Assembly: GCF_947495625.1 (NCBI RefSeq)
Contig: NZ_CANLZW010000001.1
Span: 62,001-126,000 of the forward strand
Source: an uncultured Cocleimonas sp.
Lineage (GTDB): Bacteria > Pseudomonadota > Gammaproteobacteria > Thiotrichales > Thiotrichaceae
Length of the DNA stretch: 64,000 nt
Reading direction: 5' to 3'
Positions 1,515-58,402 of this stretch are shown here, one piece after another. Position numbers and translations under genes: made by a program. The stretch's first letter is position 1. Every line of letters begins with the position of its first letter. Under the pieces are notes generated by a model. It searched no databases and was not told the origin of the DNA. It was given only the letters and a program-made list of their open reading frames with translations.

Positions 1515-1646
1515 GGTCACCTCCCTACTTTGAATGAGTTCTCGTTTTGTTTTTTAAAACGTTAGCACGAATTTATGCCAAAGCTTAGTGATAGCTCGAC
1601 TAAAAGGAGACTCTATAACTTAGCGTGTATGAGGCATATTTTAACA
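1515..1646 (+). repeat. Dispersed hairpin-module element, two-module long form (type C)
   Basis: Begins with the family head GGTCACCTCCCTACTT at 1515-1530 and runs through a hairpin module (GTTCTCGTTTT pairing with AAAACGTTAGCAC-like bases), then the joint TTTATGCCAAAGC. A second module follows with TGATAG near 1588 facing CTATAA near 1613. The tail is GAGGCATATTTT. It matches the copy at 21311-21437 along almost its entire length. The head overlaps the ribosome-binding site of the GNAT gene. Confidence 0.85.
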
Positions 1647-7590: not shown

Positions 7591-7598
7591 ATAGTTTA

Positions 7599-7665
7599 TT
7601 GAGTCACCCCCCTACTTATAGGCACATTTTTTCAAAAAGTGCCTATAAGTAGGGGGGTGACTCAA
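7599..7665. repeat. Dispersed element, head-to-head inverted pair (27-bp perfect stem)
   Basis: Left arm 7599-7625 and right arm 7639-7665 are exact reverse complements over 27 bases, and the spacer ATTTTTTCAAAAA can extend the stem. Each arm is a half element (head, then TATAGGCAC tail). It lies exactly between the convergent fbpC and nfeD genes, where it could act as a bidirectional terminator. Confidence 0.92.
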
Positions 7666-12163: not shown

Positions 12164-12751
12164 ATGACACAACAACTCACCAGAGATGACTTACTTTCTT
12201 TAGAACAGTATCACGAACAGCGACCAGAAATTCGCGCTGCAACCATGCTTCACAAAAAGAGCCGCAATCTACCTGTTGGACCAAATGTTACGCTGTATTT
12301 CGAAGATGCAACTACCTTAAAATATCAAATTCAGGAAATTCTACGTGCCGAAAAAGTATTTGATGCAGCAGGTATTAACGAAGAATTGGAAGTCTATAAC
12401 GCAATGTTGCCAACAGGTACAAACTGGAAAGCGACGATGATGATTGAATATGTGGATGTTGAAGAAAGAGTAAAAGCATTATCTCAACTCATCGGTATTG
12501 ACCGAAAAACCTGGGTACAAGTTGAAGGATTCGACAAAGTATTCGCGATTAGCAATGAAGACTTAGAGCGCGAAACCGAAGACAAGACCTCTGCGGTGCA
12601 CTTCATGCGCTTTGAATTAACCCCAGAGATGATTGCTGCGGTTAAAGATGGCGCAGCAATTAATGTCGGTATAGATCACGAAAACTACACGCATGCGATA
12701 ACGCCAGTTCCTGAGAATTATCGTCAGGCTATGGCAAATGACCTAGCTTAA
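12164..12751 (+). CDS. DUF3501 family protein
   Basis: A 195-residue protein beginning MTQQLTRDDLLSLEQYHEQR, which matches the usual opening of DUF3501 proteins. The ATG at 12164 is therefore preferred over an upstream TTG at 12149; ACGGA 8 bases before it can serve as Shine-Dalgarno. No catalytic motif or cysteine is apparent. Function unknown, but the family is regularly encoded after rubrerythrin and the CCG-domain Fe-S protein, as here (21-base gap). The TAA stop is the first base of a dispersed repeat element, so the repeat sits directly at the gene end. Confidence 0.85.
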   Translation: MTQQLTRDDLLSLEQYHEQRPEIRAATMLHKKSRNLPVGPNVTLYFEDATTLKYQIQEILRAEKVFDAAGINEELEVYNAMLPTGTNWKATMMIEYVDVEERVKALSQLIGIDRKTWVQVEGFDKVFAISNEDLERETEDKTSAVHFMRFELTPEMIAAVKDGAAINVGIDHENYTHAITPVPENYRQAMANDLA

Positions 12752-12835
12752 AGTCACCCCCCCTACTTTGAATGAAATTACGTTTTTGTTTTTTTAAAAC
12801 GTAAATAGAATTTATGCAGAGCTAGACACTTTTTT
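12750..12835 (+). repeat. Dispersed element, one-module form (type A)
   Basis: Head AAGTCACCCCCCCTACTT at 12751-12768, module GAATGA then hairpin TTACGTTTTTG / AAAACGTAA, joint TTTATGCAGAGC, tail TAGACACTTTTTT. It abuts the DUF3501 stop codon. Confidence 0.9.
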
Positions 12836-12853
12836 ATTACTTTCTAAAAGAAT

Positions 12854-12888
12854 AAAAAAACGCCCCTTAACTATTAAGCAAAGGGGCG
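12854..12888 (-). terminator. Intrinsic terminator of the fccB-like gene
   Basis: CGCCCCTT (12861-12868) pairs with AAGGGGCG (12881-12888). On the minus strand the stem is followed by a run of seven Ts, a canonical rho-independent terminator about 60 bases after the fccB-like stop. Confidence 0.8.
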
Positions 12889-12947
12889 CTCATGCTTCCT
12901 GCAACGTCTAATTTAAAAGCATAATAAAACTACGCTATTAGTTACTC

Positions 12948-14201
12948 TTAAGAAAAAGTATCTCCAAATAAACTCTTCGACCAAACAAACATTTCTTCAT
13001 AGTTGTTTTTAGTAGCCGTAGATGCAGACCCACCAGACCCTGCGACTTTCTGAATACTGTCTGTAGCAGAATCATAACCATATACTGCAGTTAACCATGT
13101 TGCCGTATCAGCCGAAACAGGACTATAACAAGCCGAATTGGTCATCGGTGCTGCATATGGCAAGCCTCCATTTAACAAACGAATCACCGCATCGGCACAT
13201 ACCTTTGCTTCAGAATTAGCAATGTGTCCAGCTTTTGGCTGGCCTGTTCCCTGTGAATCTCCAATGACATGGATATTATTCACCATGGTTGACTCATAGC
13301 TTAAAGGGTTAACACCAGCCCAGCGATCCGCTACAGTAATGAGACCTGCAGATTTTATAATTTCTCCTGCAGACTGCTCTGGAATGATATTTAGAACATC
13401 AGCCTTGATGTCTGACATTGATTCGGTTGAAACAACTAACTGATCAGAATCTACACCAGTGATTACCACCTCTTTATGGTATTCAACAATCCCTGCATAA
13501 GTAGTATCAAATGCATGTCCGAATATTTCTTTTTCAACAAGAATATCCGCATTAGCATCTAGTACGATAACCTTTGATCCCGGCTTATTGCTTTTCAAAT
13601 AATCTGCAATAACACAGGCTCTTTCATAAGGCCCAGGAGGACAGCGGTAAGGAGCGGCAGGAATACTCATAACGAATGTTCCACCAGCCGGCATTGCTTC
13701 GAGTTGCTGCTGCAACATCGTAACTTGCTCGCCTGATTGCCATGCATGGGGTACCTTATCCAGATCATGCCCTTCTACAGGATTGAAAGTGATACCTGGG
13801 GCTAGAATCAGACGATCATACTCAAGCACCGCACCAGAACTAAGCGAAACCTTTTGAGTAACACCGTCAACACCACTAACCCAGTCAGTAATAACTTCCA
13901 CACCGTATTTTTGTGCCAGGGCGTCATAGCTAAAAGTGATTTGATCCATCGACAACTGCCCATTAAGAACCAGATTGCTCATTATTGGCGATTGGTATTT
14001 TGCTTTAGGCTCGATCAACGTTACGTTTAAATCTGGAGACCAGTGCTTTAGATATTTAGCTGCCGTAGCACCACCAAATCCACCACCTACCACAATCACT
14101 CTTGGGCCAGTTGTTGCTGCCTTTAAAATAGTAGGAAAAGATGCTAACGCTGTAGCACCACCCAGTGCCTTAAGGAAATTTCTACGTGATGAAGTATTCA
14201 T
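12948..14201 (-). CDS. fccB: FAD-dependent sulfide dehydrogenase flavoprotein (FccB/SoxF-like)
   Basis: A 417-residue secreted flavoprotein. The twin-Arg signal SSRRNFLKALGGATALASFP at the N-terminus sends it folded to the periplasm. The FAD-binding motif VIVVGGGFGGATAAKYL is near residue 34. Redox cysteines occur at CPPGPYERACVIADYL near 186 and NSACYSPVS near 360; the second belongs to the C-terminal FCSD flavin-binding domain. The family oxidises sulfide to sulfur and passes electrons to cytochrome c. The upstream gene is a cytochrome c lipoprotein whose stop overlaps this start by one base (TAATG), so the two likely form the complex. A strong terminator follows. Confidence 0.88.
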   Translation of the reverse strand: MNTSSRRNFLKALGGATALASFPTILKAATTGPRVIVVGGGFGGATAAKYLKHWSPDLNVTLIEPKAKYQSPIMSNLVLNGQLSMDQITFSYDALAQKYGVEVITDWVSGVDGVTQKVSLSSGAVLEYDRLILAPGITFNPVEGHDLDKVPHAWQSGEQVTMLQQQLEAMPAGGTFVMSIPAAPYRCPPGPYERACVIADYLKSNKPGSKVIVLDANADILVEKEIFGHAFDTTYAGIVEYHKEVVITGVDSDQLVVSTESMSDIKADVLNIIPEQSAGEIIKSAGLITVADRWAGVNPLSYESTMVNNIHVIGDSQGTGQPKAGHIANSEAKVCADAVIRLLNGGLPYAAPMTNSACYSPVSADTATWLTAVYGYDSATDSIQKVAGSGGSASTATKNNYEEMFVWSKSLFGDTFS

Positions 14202-15259
14202 TATTCACCTCCACTTTTGCTTGAAAGATTATTGAAATAGTCGTCCATGAGACGGATTTGCTCATCGGAATAACCATTCGCTTGAAGGTGCATAAGCTCT
14301 CGCTTGCTCTCTCTTTTCATCTCATCAAGATCGCCGTAAATTTCTTCACCAATCAAGTCTTCAAAACCTTTGTTTGGATTAGCGTCAGTTCGATGACATT
14401 GAGCACATTGTGCGGCCAATAATCTACCCGCTGATGGTGTAGTTACTGCAATAGGTGGGTTTTCCGTTTGATTATTCTCTTCGTCTTCCTGATCTTCCTG
14501 ATCTTCCTGATCTTCCTGATCTTCCTGATCTTCTACTTCATCCTCAACGCCATCGTTGTCATCATCAACATCATCGTCGTCTTTGATGCCATCTCTATCG
14601 TCATCATCGTCATGATCACTGTCGTCATCGTCTTTAATACCGTCTCCGTCATCATCTTCGTCATCGTGATTATTGATTTTGTCGCCATCATCATCTTCGT
14701 ACAGGTCAATGATTTCATCATCATCCTTATCAAGCGGATCAACATCTTTTTCAATGACTTTCATTGTGCTTGACGACACAGCGTCCAGATTTACTTCCGT
14801 AGGTACATCCTCAACACCATCTTCATTAACATCTGAGTTCATCGCATCTCTTGATAGCGCTAAATCCACATGCGCTAGATTGATATCACCACTAGCACTA
14901 AACGCAATACTGGCAATACCATCACTGCTGACAAATTTAATTGGGGTGATTACTTTGTTTGTTGGGTCGTCTTCATTCGTAGTCATTACAAGTCGACATG
15001 ACAAGTCTTTCGGTATTTTCAGTTCGAATGGATGCTTCGTCGTTGCATTATTTTGTGAATTTACGGCATGGTAGGACCCGTCTTCGCAGAATGCTTCTAT
15101 TAATGTACCCGGAACAGTTCCGGTTAAATTAACACTTGGTTTACTAGTAGATGAGGTAGGACTGCTATCGCTTGATGTAGCTCCTCCTCCGCCTCCCCCA
15201 CAAGCAGCTAGCACAGCCGCTGTTGAGACCATTAATGAAATGGTATATCGTTTTTTCAT
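14201..15259 (-). CDS. Acidic cytochrome c lipoprotein, partner of the FccB-like flavoprotein
   Basis: A 352-residue protein with a signal peptide ending in the lipobox LAACGGGGGG. A region of about 100 residues rich in Asp/Glu (DEDDDGDGIKDDDD-like, thrombospondin type-3 or EF-hand-like calcium repeats) spans residues about 165-265. Then comes a perfect ED-Q tripeptide repeat, and a C-terminal cytochrome c domain with one heme site CAQCH near residue 285. It likely replaces FccA as electron acceptor of the flavoprotein. The start is the ATG at 15259 because GTGGAG lies 6 bases upstream; the GTG in that Shine-Dalgarno is an in-frame alternative (15271). Confidence 0.85.
   Translation of the reverse strand: MKKRYTISLMVSTAAVLAACGGGGGGATSSDSSPTSSTSKPSVNLTGTVPGTLIEAFCEDGSYHAVNSQNNATTKHPFELKIPKDLSCRLVMTTNEDDPTNKVITPIKFVSSDGIASIAFSASGDINLAHVDLALSRDAMNSDVNEDGVEDVPTEVNLDAVSSSTMKVIEKDVDPLDKDDDEIIDLYEDDDGDKINNHDDEDDDGDGIKDDDDSDHDDDDDRDGIKDDDDVDDDNDGVEDEVEDQEDQEDQEDQEDQEDEENNQTENPPIAVTTPSAGRLLAAQCAQCHRTDANPNKGFEDLIGEEIYGDLDEMKRESKRELMHLQANGYSDEQIRLMDDYFNNLSSKSGGE
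14484..14537. repeat. 9-bp tandem repeat inside the cytochrome lipoprotein gene
   Basis: The unit TCTTCCTGA repeats about six times. On the coding (minus) strand each unit adds Gln-Glu-Asp. The units are nearly identical in DNA, so copy number can change by slippage while keeping the frame. Confidence 0.9.
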
Positions 15260-15315
15260 GGTATACTCCACTTGCTAAGTTGCTTACCTGCAAAAACTGC
15301 GGTAAGTAGTTTATC

Positions 15316-15339
15316 GACCCGGAGTTGCAGCTCCGGGTC
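15316..15339. other. GC-rich hairpin between cytochrome and DUF5666 genes
   Basis: GACCCGGAG (15316-15324) pairs with CTCCGGGTC (15331-15339) around a 6-base loop, upstream of the cytochrome lipoprotein start on the minus strand. No T-run follows on either strand, so it may be a processing site, or attenuator, rather than a terminator. Confidence 0.45.
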
Positions 15340-15479
15340 ACCCTCTTCAATCAGCACTTCTGCTGAATAAAAAAATAGTTTTTCCTTGTTTTAAAATTAT
15401 TAAATCAGCTACTGTTTTTTATTATTTATTACTGCCCTTCTTCGTCTTCACTCTCATCTTCTTCGTCGTCTTCTAGGTC

Positions 15480-16739
15480 TTATTCGTCAACTCCTTCTTC
15501 GATTTGTTCTTCTGCTTCACTCTCTTTGCGTTCGAACTTACTGGCTAGAATTTCGCCACTTGTGATTTGTACACCAACAACTTTTACTTTGTCGTTGAGT
15601 GCAAGATCAGCGAGGGTTAATGGCGAAACATTTAAGTCGCTTTCGTCGCGCATTATGGTTTCAGAGTCGATAACCACAGTTTTTCCTGACACTATTACTT
15701 TATTAGTACCCAGGTCGACATTCTCGATAAAGCCTTCGTACTCATCCAGCTCATCTTCATTTTCTTCAAACTCAATTGATTCAGCGACAATGACTCCTGC
15801 ACTGTTCGTTTTTCCTTCTAGTTCTATAAAAGCGCCTAGAGTTAGGTCATTGATATCCCCATCCGAATATTCTGTATTCGTATCTGTAGTCACCGTTAAA
15901 CCATTAACATCGAAATCAGTGGCCGAATTAAATCGCGTAATCTGACCTTCAATTTTGGCTTCTGTACCTTCATCAAATTCATAAGTTTCATCTTCTAACT
16001 CAACTTTGTCTGCAATCAAAACATTGCCAACAATCAGCGAGTCACTTTCAACTTCTACAAACAAACCATCCCTAAGTTCAACTGAACCAAAATCTTCAAG
16101 CTTGGCTCCAGAATAATCAATGATGAGATCGTTTATAGCGAAGGTCATAGTGCTAGCATCTAGATTTGAAACAGTTCCCTTCAACTCATATTCCGAGGTT
16201 CCCGGAATAAAATCAGTTGTTTTAAGTTTGATGCTGGTTGCCTGAATATCTCCGTTGGCATCTTTAAATCCAGATACTTCAATAATATTCCCTACTATCA
16301 ACGTAGAGAGATCAGTAAAACCTATTAAGACAGTAAGCGAGTTTGTGATGACTTTTTGTCCTAATACTTCCAGACTCAATCCATCTGAAGTAACTACTGT
16401 TACTGAACCTTCAATTTCATTGGTAAAAGCAACTTCTTCAGCAATACCACTAAGCCCAGAGTTGTCAATCTTGCCTTTTATGACGACAAACTCTCCGACA
16501 CTATATTCTTCCTGACCGGTTGCTGGTATACCGTCACGTATAAAGCTAGCACTATCCACATCAAAACGTACACCATCGACAATGATGCTTCCAAAATTAC
16601 TGATTCTACCCATTGTTATGCCAGTGCCGCTGATACCACCATCGGCGACGGTCGTGCCTCCACCTCCGCAGCCATGAAACAAAATAGACGCCGATAGGAA
16701 AATAATACTTAGAAAAGCTCTCTGATATTTTTTAATCAT
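15480..16739 (-). CDS. DUF5666 lipoprotein
   Basis: A 419-residue lipoprotein with a signal peptide and lipobox LFHGCGGGG. The body consists of about five repeated beta-rich DUF5666 units, recognisable by phrases such as VEVESDSLIVG, AKIEGQITRF and AFIELEGKTN. These are small beta-barrels of unknown function outside the inner membrane. The ATG at 16739 with Shine-Dalgarno AGAGGT is preferred over an upstream GTG at 16793; it overlaps the end of the DUF6502 gene by 8 bases. The TAA stop at 15480-15482 is followed in frame by 16 strongly acidic codons and then a second TAA. Confidence 0.85.
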   Translation of the reverse strand: MIKKYQRAFLSIIFLSASILFHGCGGGGTTVADGGISGTGITMGRISNFGSIIVDGVRFDVDSASFIRDGIPATGQEEYSVGEFVVIKGKIDNSGLSGIAEEVAFTNEIEGSVTVVTSDGLSLEVLGQKVITNSLTVLIGFTDLSTLIVGNIIEVSGFKDANGDIQATSIKLKTTDFIPGTSEYELKGTVSNLDASTMTFAINDLIIDYSGAKLEDFGSVELRDGLFVEVESDSLIVGNVLIADKVELEDETYEFDEGTEAKIEGQITRFNSATDFDVNGLTVTTDTNTEYSDGDINDLTLGAFIELEGKTNSAGVIVAESIEFEENEDELDEYEGFIENVDLGTNKVIVSGKTVVIDSETIMRDESDLNVSPLTLADLALNDKVKVVGVQITSGEILASKFERKESEAEEQIEEGVDE

Positions 16740-17553
16740 TTTTGACCTCTTGACCCTCGCATGGGTCCTCAAAATAGTACACACCAACGCCAACTTTCAT
16801 GGGATTATCACTTTTTATTGTTGTTTGAGTATCCATGTCATGCTGGGCCAGCCAGGCATTAAGTTTAAGGAGTAATAACTGGTTTTCTTTATTAGCTAGC
16901 ACCTTAAAATCTTCAAGTAACTCCGCAGGAATCTTGTCGTAACTGACCTTACGTTGATATCTTGGTTCAGAATCTGATGAAATAATATTGTGTTTGATAG
17001 TGGAAATTAGTAATGAAACATCTTCACCCAAAACATCGTATTTAGCATTTTCATCATTCGATGGAATGTACGCTTCACGTATCAGAGCCACTTTATTTTT
17101 ATCAATAATTTCAACTGCTTCGGTTCTAATTAACTCTTTAATAAGGGCTTTATAAGGCATATCACCGCTATGATGATTTACCAGTTGTTCAAAGCTATTC
17201 TGTTTTCCTTGAATATCCAGAATTTTCGGTTGCCCCTTGGTATCACAAAAATCTGGATCAGTTGACCAACCAGAAATCACTCTTATAGCCCTGTTTTTCT
17301 GTTTACCCTCTTCCACTCTTGGTAACGCTTCTTTTCTCAAAGCTGCCACATCTTTGCGCGTTAGCCCGGTAATTATTGCAATACTGGAAGTACTTGCTTT
17401 TTCACCTGACGCTATTAGCTCTTTTTCGGTTTCTTTGATATATGCATGTTTTGCTATTCGCGAAAATTCAGCAAAGGACACGCCATTACGAAACATTAAA
17501 CCAATGAGCGGTTTAATAATTGCGTAAATTGCTGTTGAGAGGTGTTTGTTCAT
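16732..17553 (-). CDS. DUF6502 family protein
   Basis: A 273-residue cytoplasmic protein starting MNKHLSTAIYAIIKPLIGLMF, matching DUF6502. The N-terminal third (IAIITGLTRKDVAALRKEAL near residue 65) looks like a winged-helix DNA-binding region. The rest is unassigned. DUF6502 and DUF5666 genes are commonly adjacent (recalled), and here they overlap by 8 bases, so they are certainly co-transcribed. The ATG at 17553 is used; a TTG at 17574 is an unlikely alternative because it lies inside a palindrome that may be its operator. Regulatory control of the lipoprotein is an inference. Confidence 0.8.
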   Translation of the reverse strand: MNKHLSTAIYAIIKPLIGLMFRNGVSFAEFSRIAKHAYIKETEKELIASGEKASTSSIAIITGLTRKDVAALRKEALPRVEEGKQKNRAIRVISGWSTDPDFCDTKGQPKILDIQGKQNSFEQLVNHHSGDMPYKALIKELIRTEAVEIIDKNKVALIREAYIPSNDENAKYDVLGEDVSLLISTIKHNIISSDSEPRYQRKVSYDKIPAELLEDFKVLANKENQLLLLKLNAWLAQHDMDTQTTIKSDNPMKVGVGVYYFEDPCEGQEVKND

Positions 17554-17556
17554 TTT

Positions 17557-17574
17557 TTGGGATAATATTCCCAA
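17557..17574. promoter_or_regulatory. Palindrome at the start of the DUF6502 gene
   Basis: TTGGGATAATATTCCCAA is an 18-bp near-perfect inverted repeat placed 4 bases upstream of the ATG at 17553, across the ribosome-binding region. It is a candidate autoregulatory operator for the winged-helix-like DUF6502 protein. Confidence 0.4.
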
Positions 17575-17633
17575 ATTTAATAAAATGCAAACTTTGCTGA
17601 CGATTGAATTTAAGATTGGTTATTTGGAAGTAG

Positions 17634-17720
17634 AAAGTCACCCCTGCTACTTTGAATGACAATTTGTTTTTGTAGTGTAAAAACAGTTTTGGAATTTATG
17701 CAGAGCTTAGGCATTTTTTA
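17634..17720 (+). repeat. Dispersed element, diverged one-module form (type A-like)
   Basis: Head AAAGTCACCCCTGCTACTTT at 17634-17653 is the most worn copy. The module keeps a hairpin (GTTTTTG / AAAAAC) with different bases, then TTTATGCAGAGC and TTAGGCATTTTTT. It lies between DUF6502 and LysR genes, both minus. Confidence 0.85.
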
Positions 17721-21310: not shown

Positions 21311-21437
21311 TCACTCCCCTACTTAAATGAGTTCTCGTTTTTGTGTTTTAAAACGTTAGAACGAATTTATGCCAAAGTTTAGTTATAGATCGACTGTAAG
21401 GAGACCCTATAACTTAGCGTGTATTTAGGCACTTTTT
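21311..21437 (+). repeat. Dispersed element, two-module long form (type C)
   Basis: Head TCACTCCCCTACTT, first hairpin module (GTTCTCGTTTT / AAAACGTTAGAAC), joint TTTATGCCAAAG, second module with TTATAG facing CTATAA, and tail TTTAGGCACTTTTT. Nearly identical to 1515-1646. It lies between convergent genes. Confidence 0.88.
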
Positions 21438-32557: not shown

Positions 32558-32600
32558 TATGTCTAAATACTATATGACTGAATCTGGGCGATTTACTAAA

Positions 32601-32630
32601 AGCCACCTCCCTACTTATAGCCATATTTTT
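32601..32630 (+). repeat. Dispersed element, worn half form
   Basis: AGCCACCTCCCTACTTATAG then CCATATTTTT. Head has C-to-T changes like the copy at 1515. It lies in the 518-base gap after tauC. Confidence 0.7.
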
Positions 32631-32721
32631 AATCGGACAGATCATGCTGTTATGTCTAGAATAAAATCCTTACTTCAATCGGCTCTGGACCCATAGATGT
32701 GTGTTGTAAGCTAATTTATTT

Positions 32722-32753
32722 AAAGTCACCCCCCTACTTATAGGCACTTTTTT
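32722..32753 (+). repeat. Dispersed element, half form
   Basis: AAAGTCACCCCCCTACTTAT then AGGCACTTTTTT, a near-consensus half element, 90 bases from another copy in the same gap. Confidence 0.88.
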
Positions 32754-32791
32754 ATACGTGTTTTTTTAATTGAGTCTATCGTTTATTTTTT

Positions 32792-38990: not shown

Positions 38991-39073
38991 AAGTCACCCC
39001 CCTACTTTAAGTGACTTTTCATTTTGCTGTTTAAAATGACTTAAGGAACTTATGCAGAGCTAGGCGTTTTTTT
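38991..39073 (+). repeat. Dispersed element, one-module form (type B)
   Basis: Head AAGTCACCCCCCTACTT, a different module (hairpin TCATTTT / AAAATGA), joint CTTATGCAGAGC and tail TAGGCGTTTTTTT. The T-run overlaps the polB stop codon. Confidence 0.9.
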
Positions 39074-41480
39074 AACCAAATACATCAAGCTGGCGCGCTG
39101 TAATTTTTTCGAATGTTGTGCCTAAAAAATACAAAATACTATCCGCTACAGGTGCCAATTGTTTGTCCACATAATGCTGATAATCCGGAATAGAATCTAA
39201 ACTTTCAAGCGGTTCTGGACCATTCAAAGTGATGACATATTGGATTTTTCTACCGGGGTTTTTCATTTTTCGCGCCGCTTTAACCTGTGGTGGCTGGGTG
39301 CTGGTATAACTTTCCAGTGGTCTGCGTAAACGCTTGGTATAGGTTAATTTATGGTTTAATTCACCATTAATCAAAGCATCGTGTGTTGCTGAAATATAGT
39401 CTTCGTAGGGCTGATTATTGAAGATGCGTTTATATAGTTCCTGTTGAAATTCACGTGCTAACGGCGTCCAGTCTGTGCGCACTGTTTCTAAGCCTTTAAA
39501 GACCATTAACTTCTCTGAATTTTCATCCGCACCAGTTTGGATCATCCCGGCGTAGCGTTTTTTACTGCCCGTTTCAGCACCCCGAATAGTGGGCATTAAG
39601 AAGCGTAGGTAATGTGTTTCGAATTCAATTTCCAGATTAGACTCGATGTCAAACTCATCCAGTAAATGCTGTTTCCACCAGGCATTCAAAATTGTTTGTA
39701 ATTGCTCTCCGATACTCTGACATTCACTCCTCTCTTTCCCTTCACCCAGTAATACAAAGACGGAATCGGTGTCCCCATAAATGACAGAATAACCTTGCTG
39801 CTCGATGAGCTCTTTGCTGGTTTGAATAATTTCGTGGCCTCGCATAGTGATGCTACTGGCGAGTTGTGGATTAAAAAAACGACAACCAGACGAGCCTAGA
39901 ACACCGTAAAAGGAATTCATGATGATTTTAATCGCATACGATAAGGGCTTATTGTTTTCTTTTTTTGCCTCGTCACGTTGCTGCCAAAGTCGGGTAACAA
40001 TATCGGGCAATATGTGTTTTTCGCGTGAGAATTCTGCCTCTAAAAAACCGGGGATAGTGTCATCTAGATGATGCTGCGAAAGCCCTTCAGCCAGTCCCAT
40101 TGGATCTATCTTGAAGGTTCTGATAATGCTCGGGTACAGGCTTTTAAAATCCAGCACCAGCACGTTTTCATACAAGCCCGGCAATGAATCCATCACATAG
40201 CCACCGGGACTAGTCTTGGTATTTAGTTGACTCCCGATATCTGGTGCCACATAGCCTTGTCGGTGCAATCTGGGTAGATAGAGATTATCGAACGCCGCCG
40301 TCGAACCTCCCTGTCGATCGATCGCCAGTCCCGTCATTTTTGCCCGCTGAATGGAAAAGCTCAGCATGTCAGTTTTCTCAAAAATATCGGCAACTAATCG
40401 GCAATCTTCCAGATTGTATTCAGCTAAAGCAACGGGGTCTTCTTGATATTGACGACGTATCTCGTTTAATTTATCTAAAGGCACCCCCCCACTTTTAGCA
40501 CTATTTTTGTCTTCACTAATCAGTTTTTTACGGCCTAATAGAAGTTCGGCGACATAATCCAGAGCGAAGCTTTCAAACGAATAAAATGCGCCTCGTAAAC
40601 AGGTGATTCCATCTAGAACAACTCTACCGGGAATTCGGGCAATGTACAGTTGGCCGCTGACTTGTGGCGTGAGTATGGCTGAATTTTGATAACTCGATGT
40701 TCCGCCAGCATTTTTGCTGTCTCTTTTATTCCCCCTGCCAATATCAAAAGGCAGTTGCAATTGCTTACATTTCCATTGCAGAAAATCCAGATCAAACGCC
40801 ACGACATTCCAGCCGATGATGACGTCAGGGTCATGCTGTTTCATCCATTGGAAAAACTGTTGTAGCACATCTCTTTCACTGTAGCACCAGTGAATATTTC
40901 CTGTGCCATCGTGCGTTTCTGGCTCGTCTTTATTCATAAAGACTACTTCAATATCGTTGCTCGTTACGGCAATGGAAAATAGTTTTCCTCTGAGGTCTTC
41001 TGTTTCGATATCCAGTGAAACCACGCTAAATTCAGGATCATATTCTGCGGGTTTCATCACTGGGTTTATGAATTCGAGATACCCTTCGCGCTGAATCGCG
41101 TCACCACTAATTTCTACAGAAGCGGTGATAAAACGCTCCATCAAATAGCGTTCGGTGGGCTTAATTTCAGACTCTAGTAATTGCTGCTTATTGTAAGCGA
41201 GATGCTCACGCAATGTGTTCAGCTGGCGTTGCTGCGGGAAATACAGACCATCTACTGCTTCATGGTCGAAAGTTTTCAGCTCAAGTGGTTTTCGTTGAAC
41301 CGAAGCATCTACTTTTAAGGTATTAGAACGTCGAACAAAACAAACGGCTTGCTGTCTATCTATCAAGATATGTACAGGGCCCTGTTCAGTACTCACCCAA
41401 AAACTTAGGTTGATTCCATCCGCAGTGTCTCGCCATTGCCTGCTTAAAATGAAGCCTAATAATTTTTGTATTTTGTACAT
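39072..41480 (-). CDS. polB: DNA polymerase II
   Basis: A family B polymerase of about 802 residues (E. coli Pol II 783). The 3'-5' exonuclease motifs are intact: SLDIETED near residue 153, NVVAFDLDF near 221 and YNLEDC near 350. Polymerase motifs DFKSLYPSIIRTF near 441, KIIMNSFYGVLG near 510 and YGDTDSVFV near 566 are also intact. It performs translesion synthesis and replication restart. The start follows E. coli alignment; upstream codons in frame lack a ribosome site, and a Met at 41489 is possible. No LexA box was seen. About ten residues (SAKSGGVPL region, near 325-335) are encoded by a repeat half element. Confidence 0.93.
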   Translation of the reverse strand: MYKIQKLLGFILSRQWRDTADGINLSFWVSTEQGPVHILIDRQQAVCFVRRSNTLKVDASVQRKPLELKTFDHEAVDGLYFPQQRQLNTLREHLAYNKQQLLESEIKPTERYLMERFITASVEISGDAIQREGYLEFINPVMKPAEYDPEFSVVSLDIETEDLRGKLFSIAVTSNDIEVVFMNKDEPETHDGTGNIHWCYSERDVLQQFFQWMKQHDPDVIIGWNVVAFDLDFLQWKCKQLQLPFDIGRGNKRDSKNAGGTSSYQNSAILTPQVSGQLYIARIPGRVVLDGITCLRGAFYSFESFALDYVAELLLGRKKLISEDKNSAKSGGVPLDKLNEIRRQYQEDPVALAEYNLEDCRLVADIFEKTDMLSFSIQRAKMTGLAIDRQGGSTAAFDNLYLPRLHRQGYVAPDIGSQLNTKTSPGGYVMDSLPGLYENVLVLDFKSLYPSIIRTFKIDPMGLAEGLSQHHLDDTIPGFLEAEFSREKHILPDIVTRLWQQRDEAKKENNKPLSYAIKIIMNSFYGVLGSSGCRFFNPQLASSITMRGHEIIQTSKELIEQQGYSVIYGDTDSVFVLLGEGKERSECQSIGEQLQTILNAWWKQHLLDEFDIESNLEIEFETHYLRFLMPTIRGAETGSKKRYAGMIQTGADENSEKLMVFKGLETVRTDWTPLAREFQQELYKRIFNNQPYEDYISATHDALINGELNHKLTYTKRLRRPLESYTSTQPPQVKAARKMKNPGRKIQYVITLNGPEPLESLDSIPDYQHYVDKQLAPVADSILYFLGTTFEKITARQLDVFG
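40477..40508 (+). repeat. Dispersed element, half form inside the polB reading frame
   Basis: AAAGGCACCCCCCCACTTTT then AGCACTATTTTT matches head plus tail. It is translated in the minus frame as K-N-S-A-K-S-G-G-V-P-L and preserves the frame. Confidence 0.75.
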
Positions 41481-44858: not shown

Positions 44859-44943
44859 ACACACCCCCCTACTTTTGAATGATATTACGTTTTTGTTTTT
44901 AAAAAACGTAAATAGAATTTATGCAGAGCTAAGCCATTTTTTT
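44859..44943 (+). repeat. Dispersed element, one-module form (type A)
   Basis: Head ACACCCCCCTACTTTTGAAT, hairpin TTACGTTTTTG / AAAACGTAA, joint TTTATGCAGAGC, tail TAAGCCATTTTTTT, in the divergent LysR/dgcA gap. Confidence 0.9.
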
Positions 44944-47050: not shown

Positions 47051-47163
47051 CACCTGCCCCCTACTAAATCAGGCTCTGCTAAAAAAAGCCTTAGCTCTGC
47101 ATAAATTCTATTTACGTTTTAAAAAAACAAAAACGTAATATCATTCAAAGTAGGGGGGTGTCA
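47051..47163 (-). repeat. Dispersed element, one-module type A plus facing half
   Basis: A full type A copy in minus orientation (47081-47163: A-run, GCCTTAGCTCTGCATAAATT, hairpin, TAGGGGGGTGTCA) is faced by a worn half copy (47051-47080: CACCTGCCCCCTACTAAATC). The two T/A-rich tails meet. Confidence 0.85.
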
Positions 47164-48898: not shown

Positions 48899-49037
48899 TA
48901 AAAAAACGCCTAGCTCTGCATAAATTCTATTTACGTTCTTTAAAAACAAAAACGTAAATATCATTCCGCAAAGCATAAGTTCCTTAGGTCATTTTAAACA
49001 GCAAAATGAAAAGTCACTTAAAGTGGGGGGGTGACTT
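48899..49037 (-). repeat. Dispersed element, composite with two modules (B then A)
   Basis: In minus orientation: head with GTGGGGGGGTGAC (near 49023-49034), module B (matches 39008-39050), joint CTTATGCTTTGC, module A (hairpin TTACGTTCTTT / AACGTAA), joint TTTATGCAGAGC, tail TAGGCGTTTTTT. It fills most of the 301-base EamA/DegT gap. Confidence 0.9.
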
Positions 49038-50285: not shown

Positions 50286-50300
50286 CTTCTATCATTCTAT

Positions 50301-50330
50301 AAAAAACGCCCTAAAGTAGGGGGGTGACCT
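50301..50330 (-). repeat. Dispersed element, half form
   Basis: A-run, CGCCCTAAAG and TAGGGGGGTGACC on the plus strand between convergent genes. Confidence 0.87.
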
Positions 50331-50341
50331 ACCACAGTTCC

Positions 50342-50377
50342 TTGCTATTGCTATTGCTATTGCTATTGCTATTGCTA
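50342..50377. repeat. Six perfect TTGCTA hexamers
   Basis: A simple sequence repeat of six units lies directly after a dispersed element, between convergent DegT and GltS-like genes. No coding role is seen. Confidence 0.92.
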
Positions 50378-50417
50378 ATGTTACTTTCACTACTAATAGA
50401 CAATTAATGGAAAAGAA

Positions 50418-58134: not shown

Positions 58135-58306
58135 TTTGCCTCCTATTTTCAGCAATGACACACAGTGAAATAACAAAAACTAATAGATGGATAAACTATA
58201 TATTAGTGTGAAAAACACTATCTTGCTGAATACAAATGCATCAATTCATTAATTATAAGAATTACGCAGCTGTATTTAGTGAGAAGAGGTAGAAGTTTTA
58301 GAAACA

Positions 58307-58364
58307 GTCACCCCCCTACTTTAAGGGCATTTTTCTAAAAACGCCCTTAAAGTAGGGGGGTGAC
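58307..58364. repeat. Dispersed element, head-to-head inverted pair (22-bp perfect stem)
   Basis: Left arm 58307-58328 (GTCACCCCCCTACTTTAAGGGC) and right arm 58343-58364 are exact reverse complements; one mismatch and five A/T pairs continue the stem to a 2-base loop. It lies between aroC and hppA, both minus. Confidence 0.92.
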
Positions 58365-58402
58365 CTTTGAATTAATTAGCGCTTTAGAATGCTATAAAGA
58401 CT

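Follow-up and report, generated by a model that had tools for sequence, protein, structure and literature searches.

Comparison of orthologous sites revealed that the composite element at 48899-49037 of the window belongs to a family of elements in which hairpin units are gained, lost and replaced between one constant head and one constant tail. The window is a stretch of 64,000 nt, bases 62001-126000 of contig 1 in the genome of a Cocleimonas species, 4.60 Mb in 89 contigs (hereafter G000); Cocleimonas flava is a close relative of G000, so that orthologous sites can be compared. The account that we moderately favour has two layers, an uptake-like tag and hairpin units that enter it at a fixed joint. 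The first layer, the bare half form of head plus tail, would be an old, host-maintained tag with the signature of a DNA uptake sequence, copies of which would arise by substitution and be kept because tagged DNA would be taken up preferentially and recombined. The second would comprise hairpin units of 47-55 bp (types A and B) and their larger relatives (type C, and forms that contain an inner segment of 70 bp), and the composite at 48899 would be a tag holding B and then A.

On the minus strand, the composite reads GTCACCCCCCCACTTT / AAGTGACTTTTCATTTTGCTGTTTAAAATGACCTAAGGAACTTATGC / TTTGCG / GAATGATATTTACGTTTTTGTTTTTAAAGAACGTAAATAGAATTTATGC / AGAGCT / AGGCGTTTTTTTA, and its parts were located as the sequence-only reading had described them, a B module followed by an A module with one head and one tail (Table 1). 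The B part shares 97% identity over 65 nt with 38991-39055, and the A part is 93% identical over 58 nt to 44885-44942 and 90% identical over 59 nt to 12778-12836. The minus strand folds at -40.5 kcal/mol, compared with -22.2 +/- 3.3 for shuffled sequences (z -5.55). The same B-then-A order recurs at at least ten more loci in G000 or C. flava, including C11:21118, C25:10618 and C26:47495 (contig:position) as well as C. flava loci, which excludes a chance origin of the composite. No ortholog of the composite site was found in C. flava or in the relatives G009 and G011; its neighbour, an aminotransferase gene, does not occur at that place in C. flava, and in G009 and G011 this gene has an upstream neighbour that differs from that in G000. 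The window segment 48781-50418, which contains the composite, the aminotransferase gene and a half form, is missing from locus L248 of C. flava, where 118 bp with one bare half form are left. Several copies of a six-base tandem repeat, GCTATT, lie at about 50340-50390, just past the half form that ends at 50330.

Table 1. Parts of the composite element and other elements of the window (positions in the window).
Feature	Position	Strand	Description
Composite element	48899-49037	-	order: head, B unit, joint, A unit, tail
Head GTCACCCCCCCACTTT	49020-49035	-	holds the core CACCCCCC(T/C)ACTT
B unit	48973-49019	-	hairpin TCATTTT/AAAATGA; ends GAACTTATGC
Inter-unit joint TTTGCG	48967-48972	-	
A unit	48918-48966	-	hairpin TTTACGTT/AACGTAAA; ends GAATTTATGC
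AGAGCT and tail	48899-48917	-	AGAGCT 48912-48917; tail AGGCGTTTTTTTA 48899-48911, AGGCG plus T tract
Single-B element	38991-39071	+	same site bare in C. flava, G009 and G011
Single-A element	44859-44943	+	bare in C. flava (flanks near-identical) and in G009
Single-A element	12750-12837	+	bare in G009 and G010
Single-A element, subtype ATTTG/CAGTT	17636-17720	+	
Single-A element	47080-47162	-	no change in C. flava
Half form (32603, L198)	32590-32631	+	bare in G000 and G011; A unit in C. flava
Half form	32713-32754	+	C. flava likewise bare
Inverted array	7591-7665	.	two half forms forming a palindrome
Inverted array	58295-58366	.	two half forms forming a palindrome
Half form 3' of aminotransferase gene	50295-50330	-	place and orientation identical in G010 and G011
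Variant	1517-1640	+	A-like hairpin, then extra structured domain ending GCGTGTAT
Second copy of the 1517 variant	21311-21432	+	91% identity over 86 nt

For a census, 2.70 Mb of G000 was assembled (contigs 1-18, most of 19 and part of 20; 59% of the genome), with genes taken from the ORF calls of this analysis rather than from annotations and unit classes assigned by pattern. Heads with at most one mismatch number 656 in this sequence; 525 of them are half forms, in which a short GC-rich segment and then a T tract come immediately after the head, and A or B units are present in about 60. Arrays of the types B-A, B-B-B, A-A, A-A-A, B-A-B and unit-then-C were observed, and some units carry a nested inner segment of about 70 bp. 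A head lies within 300 nt upstream of 89 of 101 unit ends, compared with 9% of random positions, and some of the other 12 ends resemble chance matches. The joint between units is TTTGCG in 15 of 18 cases (TTCGCG in two, TTTGCT in one), and that before the tail is mostly AGAGCT (33) or TTTGCG (11). Among 94 distinct units from G000 and its relatives, TATGC is followed by a spacer almost always of three bases (AGA, TTT, TTC, AAA or ATA), by GC and then by T or G. The proposed joint rule of TATGC, two or three bases and GC was thus nearly right, the spacer being almost always three bases long and having four in the variants at 1517 and 21311 (TATGC-CAAA-GC). When the unit-unit joint pattern was sought in the named genome collection, Cocleimonas flava DSM 24830 was the sole match. 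Independent assortment of the modules, raised by the sequence-only reading, is contradicted by the counts: B is the first unit in 12 of 13 composites, whereas of the 49 single-unit elements only 10 have B (Fisher p = 3e-6), hence the units are not assorted at random. Both stems show compensatory changes, with 21 double-change cells for A (shuffles 3.1 +/- 1.5) and 13 for B (shuffles 4.2 +/- 2.2), counts in which the copies are related and the events are not independent.

The relatives' genomes were compared at selected loci, and many of the syntenic loci compared between C. flava and G000 share 84-95% identity. A unit is present in C. flava where G000 has a bare head and tail at L198 (window 32603), L204, L214 and L219, and the reverse holds at the window elements 38991 and 44859. 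Two sites differ in unit number: at C13, G000 has B where C. flava has B-A, and at C10 the states are A-A and A-A-A. At C4:142479, a type C module in G000 corresponds to B-A in C. flava between the same flanks. Altogether, the two genomes differ by presence or absence at six sites, by number at two and by replacement at one, with head and tail constant throughout; L157, L201, L202 and L217 are unchanged, and several further sites are bare in both. The site at about 8850 of C13 displays four states in four species: bare in G011, A in G010, B in G000 and B-A in C. flava. Module gain and loss within fixed ends, as opposed to simple decay, had been suspected from the window and is seen directly, together with module replacement, at the orthologous sites C4, C13, 38991 and 44859.

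In the outgroups G009, G010 and G011 (gene identity 70-79%), the intergenic places that correspond to seven module-bearing sites, a small sample (32603, 38991, 44859, 12750, C4, C10 and C13), were found to hold the bare element with its orientation unchanged; at some places a relative lacks the element, namely G009 at C10 and G010 at 38991. Since distant relatives are bare at these sites, the pattern is most simply read as an older, bare half form to which units were added later, although, given the present species tree, repeated loss of units may account for the pattern instead. The half forms had been described as head plus tail with the middle removed; the composition holds at orthologous sites, but the middle was added rather than removed.

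Filled alleles are distinguished from bare ones by a segment of about 53-56 bp between CTACTT(T/A) and AGGC or AGCC, and no duplicated target bases were detected at these breakpoints in the orthologous sites compared. The motif TATGC(N)GC, which had been put forward for checking as the constant breakpoint, does not play this role: bare-to-filled changes break at CTACTT(T/A) and GCT/AGGC, and TATGC breaks occur only in changes of unit number. At L198, two unit-adjacent bases of the head differ as well; a filled donor could have supplied them by co-conversion, but single substitutions explain the difference equally well. We suggest that units would enter the tag by copying, always at the joint that has CTACTTT on one side and AGGC on the other, with the target left unduplicated, and that after entry of the first unit further ones would be gained or lost in tandem via the repeated TATGC ends, for which slippage at the direct repeat would be enough. 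Regarding the mode of entry, a process in which another filled tag serves as copying template or conversion donor is weakly favoured over a dedicated recombinase.

The bare half form has the layout AAAGT-CACCCCCC(T/C)ACTT-TTAGGCAC-TTTTT, and its core, T tract, GC spacer and second T tract recall the extended USS layout. There are about 580-650 copies per genome, one per 4-5 kb. The exact core CACCCCCC(T/C)ACTT occurs 550 times in the 2.70 Mb (470 intergenic, 31 at gene edges and 49 deep in long ORFs), compared with means of 0.00 in ORFs and 0.02 between genes for 60 letter-shuffled cores, and the reversed core was found in neither ORFs nor intergenic sequence of the same 2.70 Mb. Perfect copies outnumber those with one mismatch, by 470 to 77 between genes and by 49 to 14 in ORFs; copies of a mobile repeat are expected to decay via one- and two-mismatch versions. 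Translation of the coding copies involves several frames and either direction (TPPLL, TPLL, HPPTF, SGGV, WGGV), and these copies retain the outer motif as well, with A and G at positions -4 and -2, TTAGGC and the T tract. Alignment of Tgt, ClpA, LivF and MurI with solved homologues showed no motif-sized gap, ClpA being off in length by one residue only; hence the copies in these four genes arose by substitution. Some copies were inserted, as indicated by a PolB-like DNA polymerase gene (window 40468-40509), in which an in-frame half form occupies a loop that is shorter in G009-G011.

About 85% of the copies are intergenic, heads are enriched between convergent genes, and about 20 close inverted pairs stand head to head with a spacing of about 30 nt. 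Exact CACCCCCCYACTTTT is found 229 to 634 times in G008-G011; in G002-G007, as in other genera of the family, the count is close to zero. Dialects are recognizable: G000 and C. flava use GTCACC, G009-G011 use GACACC, and C. flava favours ACTTAT. The tags are spaced no more evenly than intergenic positions chosen at random (CV 1.10 versus 1.03). Heads favour the C-rich strand by about 2.7:1 in all 20 contigs, consistent with GC skew; a role of this bias as a sign of single-strand transposition or of a KOPS/Chi-like site was considered and dropped, as local intergenic base skew predicts 0.69 against the 0.71 observed. Two further candidates were rejected, a hairpin between left flank and right end of the half form, for which no covariation was detected, and the single half form as an intrinsic terminator, for which neither a stem nor an orientation relative to genes was found.

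Such a profile resembles that of the DUS of Neisseriaceae and the USS of Pasteurellaceae in its hundreds of copies, perfect-match peak and coding copies (PMC3630211, PMC2397512, PMC12616744), as well as in inverted pairs, species dialects and, as in USS, a core with phased A/T tracts. Unlike these, it occurs in Thiotrichaceae, has a core that is longer and C-rich (13 bp, or 26 bp in the extended form) and a lower density, and harbours hairpin modules inside the tag; the even spacing of DUS and USS, a secondary feature that does not define the tag in all species, is likewise not seen here. Uptake motifs have been published for Neisseriaceae and Pasteurellaceae only (PMC12616744). It is quite possible, and we put it forward tentatively from sequence features, that Cocleimonas has a third, independent DNA-uptake-sequence system whose tags might serve as a fixed platform for interchangeable hairpin modules. 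ComEC is encoded in 11 of 12 genomes of the genus, and a PilQ match scored 530 bits; these proteins are necessary and widespread, and are not specific to uptake-sequence systems. A search of the literature returned no uptake or competence data for Cocleimonas, and the half form, for which uptake would be the putative function, is here called uptake-sequence-like rather than an uptake sequence. If this reading is true, a third lineage would offer an independent test of how uptake tags arise and spread, and competence would be predicted for a marine sulfur bacterium.

The modular layer finds its closest analogue, as far as layout goes, in the BOX elements of Streptococcus pneumoniae and S. suis, organized as boxA-boxB(n)-boxC, with boxes A-F in S. 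suis (PMC3049150). Shared features are fixed ends that enclose anything from zero to several hairpin modules, the existence of different module types (in S. suis), a preference for the space between convergent genes and a unit number that varies at the same site between strains (PMC3049150), and they would be explained if the whole element transposed as a BOX-like non-autonomous mobile repeat, with half forms as its zero-unit version or remnants. We find this distinctly improbable, given that bare forms are orthologous across species with genes 70-79% identical, that perfect copies outnumber one-mismatch ones and that core copies arose in conserved genes without insertion. The element also differs from BOX in its short ends (head 16 bp, tail about 12 bp, not about 50), in the dominance of the zero-unit form (about 525 of 656 heads), in the resemblance of its ends to a substitution-driven motif that is present in coding sequence too, and in the replacement of one module by an unrelated one at an orthologous site. 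Head and tail are not inverted repeats of each other, and the element is not classed as BOX because it has no terminal inverted repeats. Orthologous loci whose states include bare, A, B, B-A and C provide a direct record, at named places across species, of module gain and swap, which is an open question for BOX. To simple decay, by which every copy would be a nested deletion of one long ancestor, we give practically no credence: the half form does equal head plus tail, but the reordered arrays, the replacement at C4 and the bare outgroups refute it for the sites examined, and the array types listed above exclude one linear series of nested deletions.

Other readings concern the tag itself. The half form might be another kind of genome-wide motif, such as a site for chromosome organisation or recombination, or part of a terminator, into which units still insert; such a motif would be expected to leave the same driven-motif signature, and inverted pairs near gene ends could serve as terminators. 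We hold this to be rather unlikely: half forms beside tandem genes show no preferred orientation (147 versus 148) and the replication-strand bias equals the base-skew prediction (0.712 versus 0.691), which leaves polar-site and terminator functions unsupported, and the dialects, inverted pairs and extended flanking tracts fit uptake sequences better. REP/BIME repeats are likewise high-copy and intergenic with some inverted pairs, and two RAYT-like genes (L188 and L189) have half forms within 100 bp, as might be expected if half forms were REPs mobilised by the Y1 transposases of the genome. However, half forms are dense everywhere, single ones have neither left-right covariation nor an internal palindrome and lack the GTAG-plus-palindrome unit, and the RAYT-like gene examined, that of L188, adjoins a different repeat, its own GTAG-tagged palindrome (GTAGGTCGGATAAGCGCAGCGCTATCCGAC), which makes a REP/RAYT origin very improbable.

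Several observations touch on other elements. No Rfam match was obtained within the window. In the variants at 1517-1640 and 21311-21432 and at C10:61968 of G000, the unit is followed by a structured domain, AAAGCTTAG...GCGTGTAT, unlike A, B and C. The 5 kb between two same-strand A elements (window 12753-17720) are absent at locus L240 of C. flava, and the junction there is marked by one bare half form; recombination between elements may add or remove genes. An IS200/IS605-like sequence (AAAAATCCACGTTCTAAGAACGTGG) lies within A units, at similar points, at L190 and at C14:191 and C18:86471 of G000.
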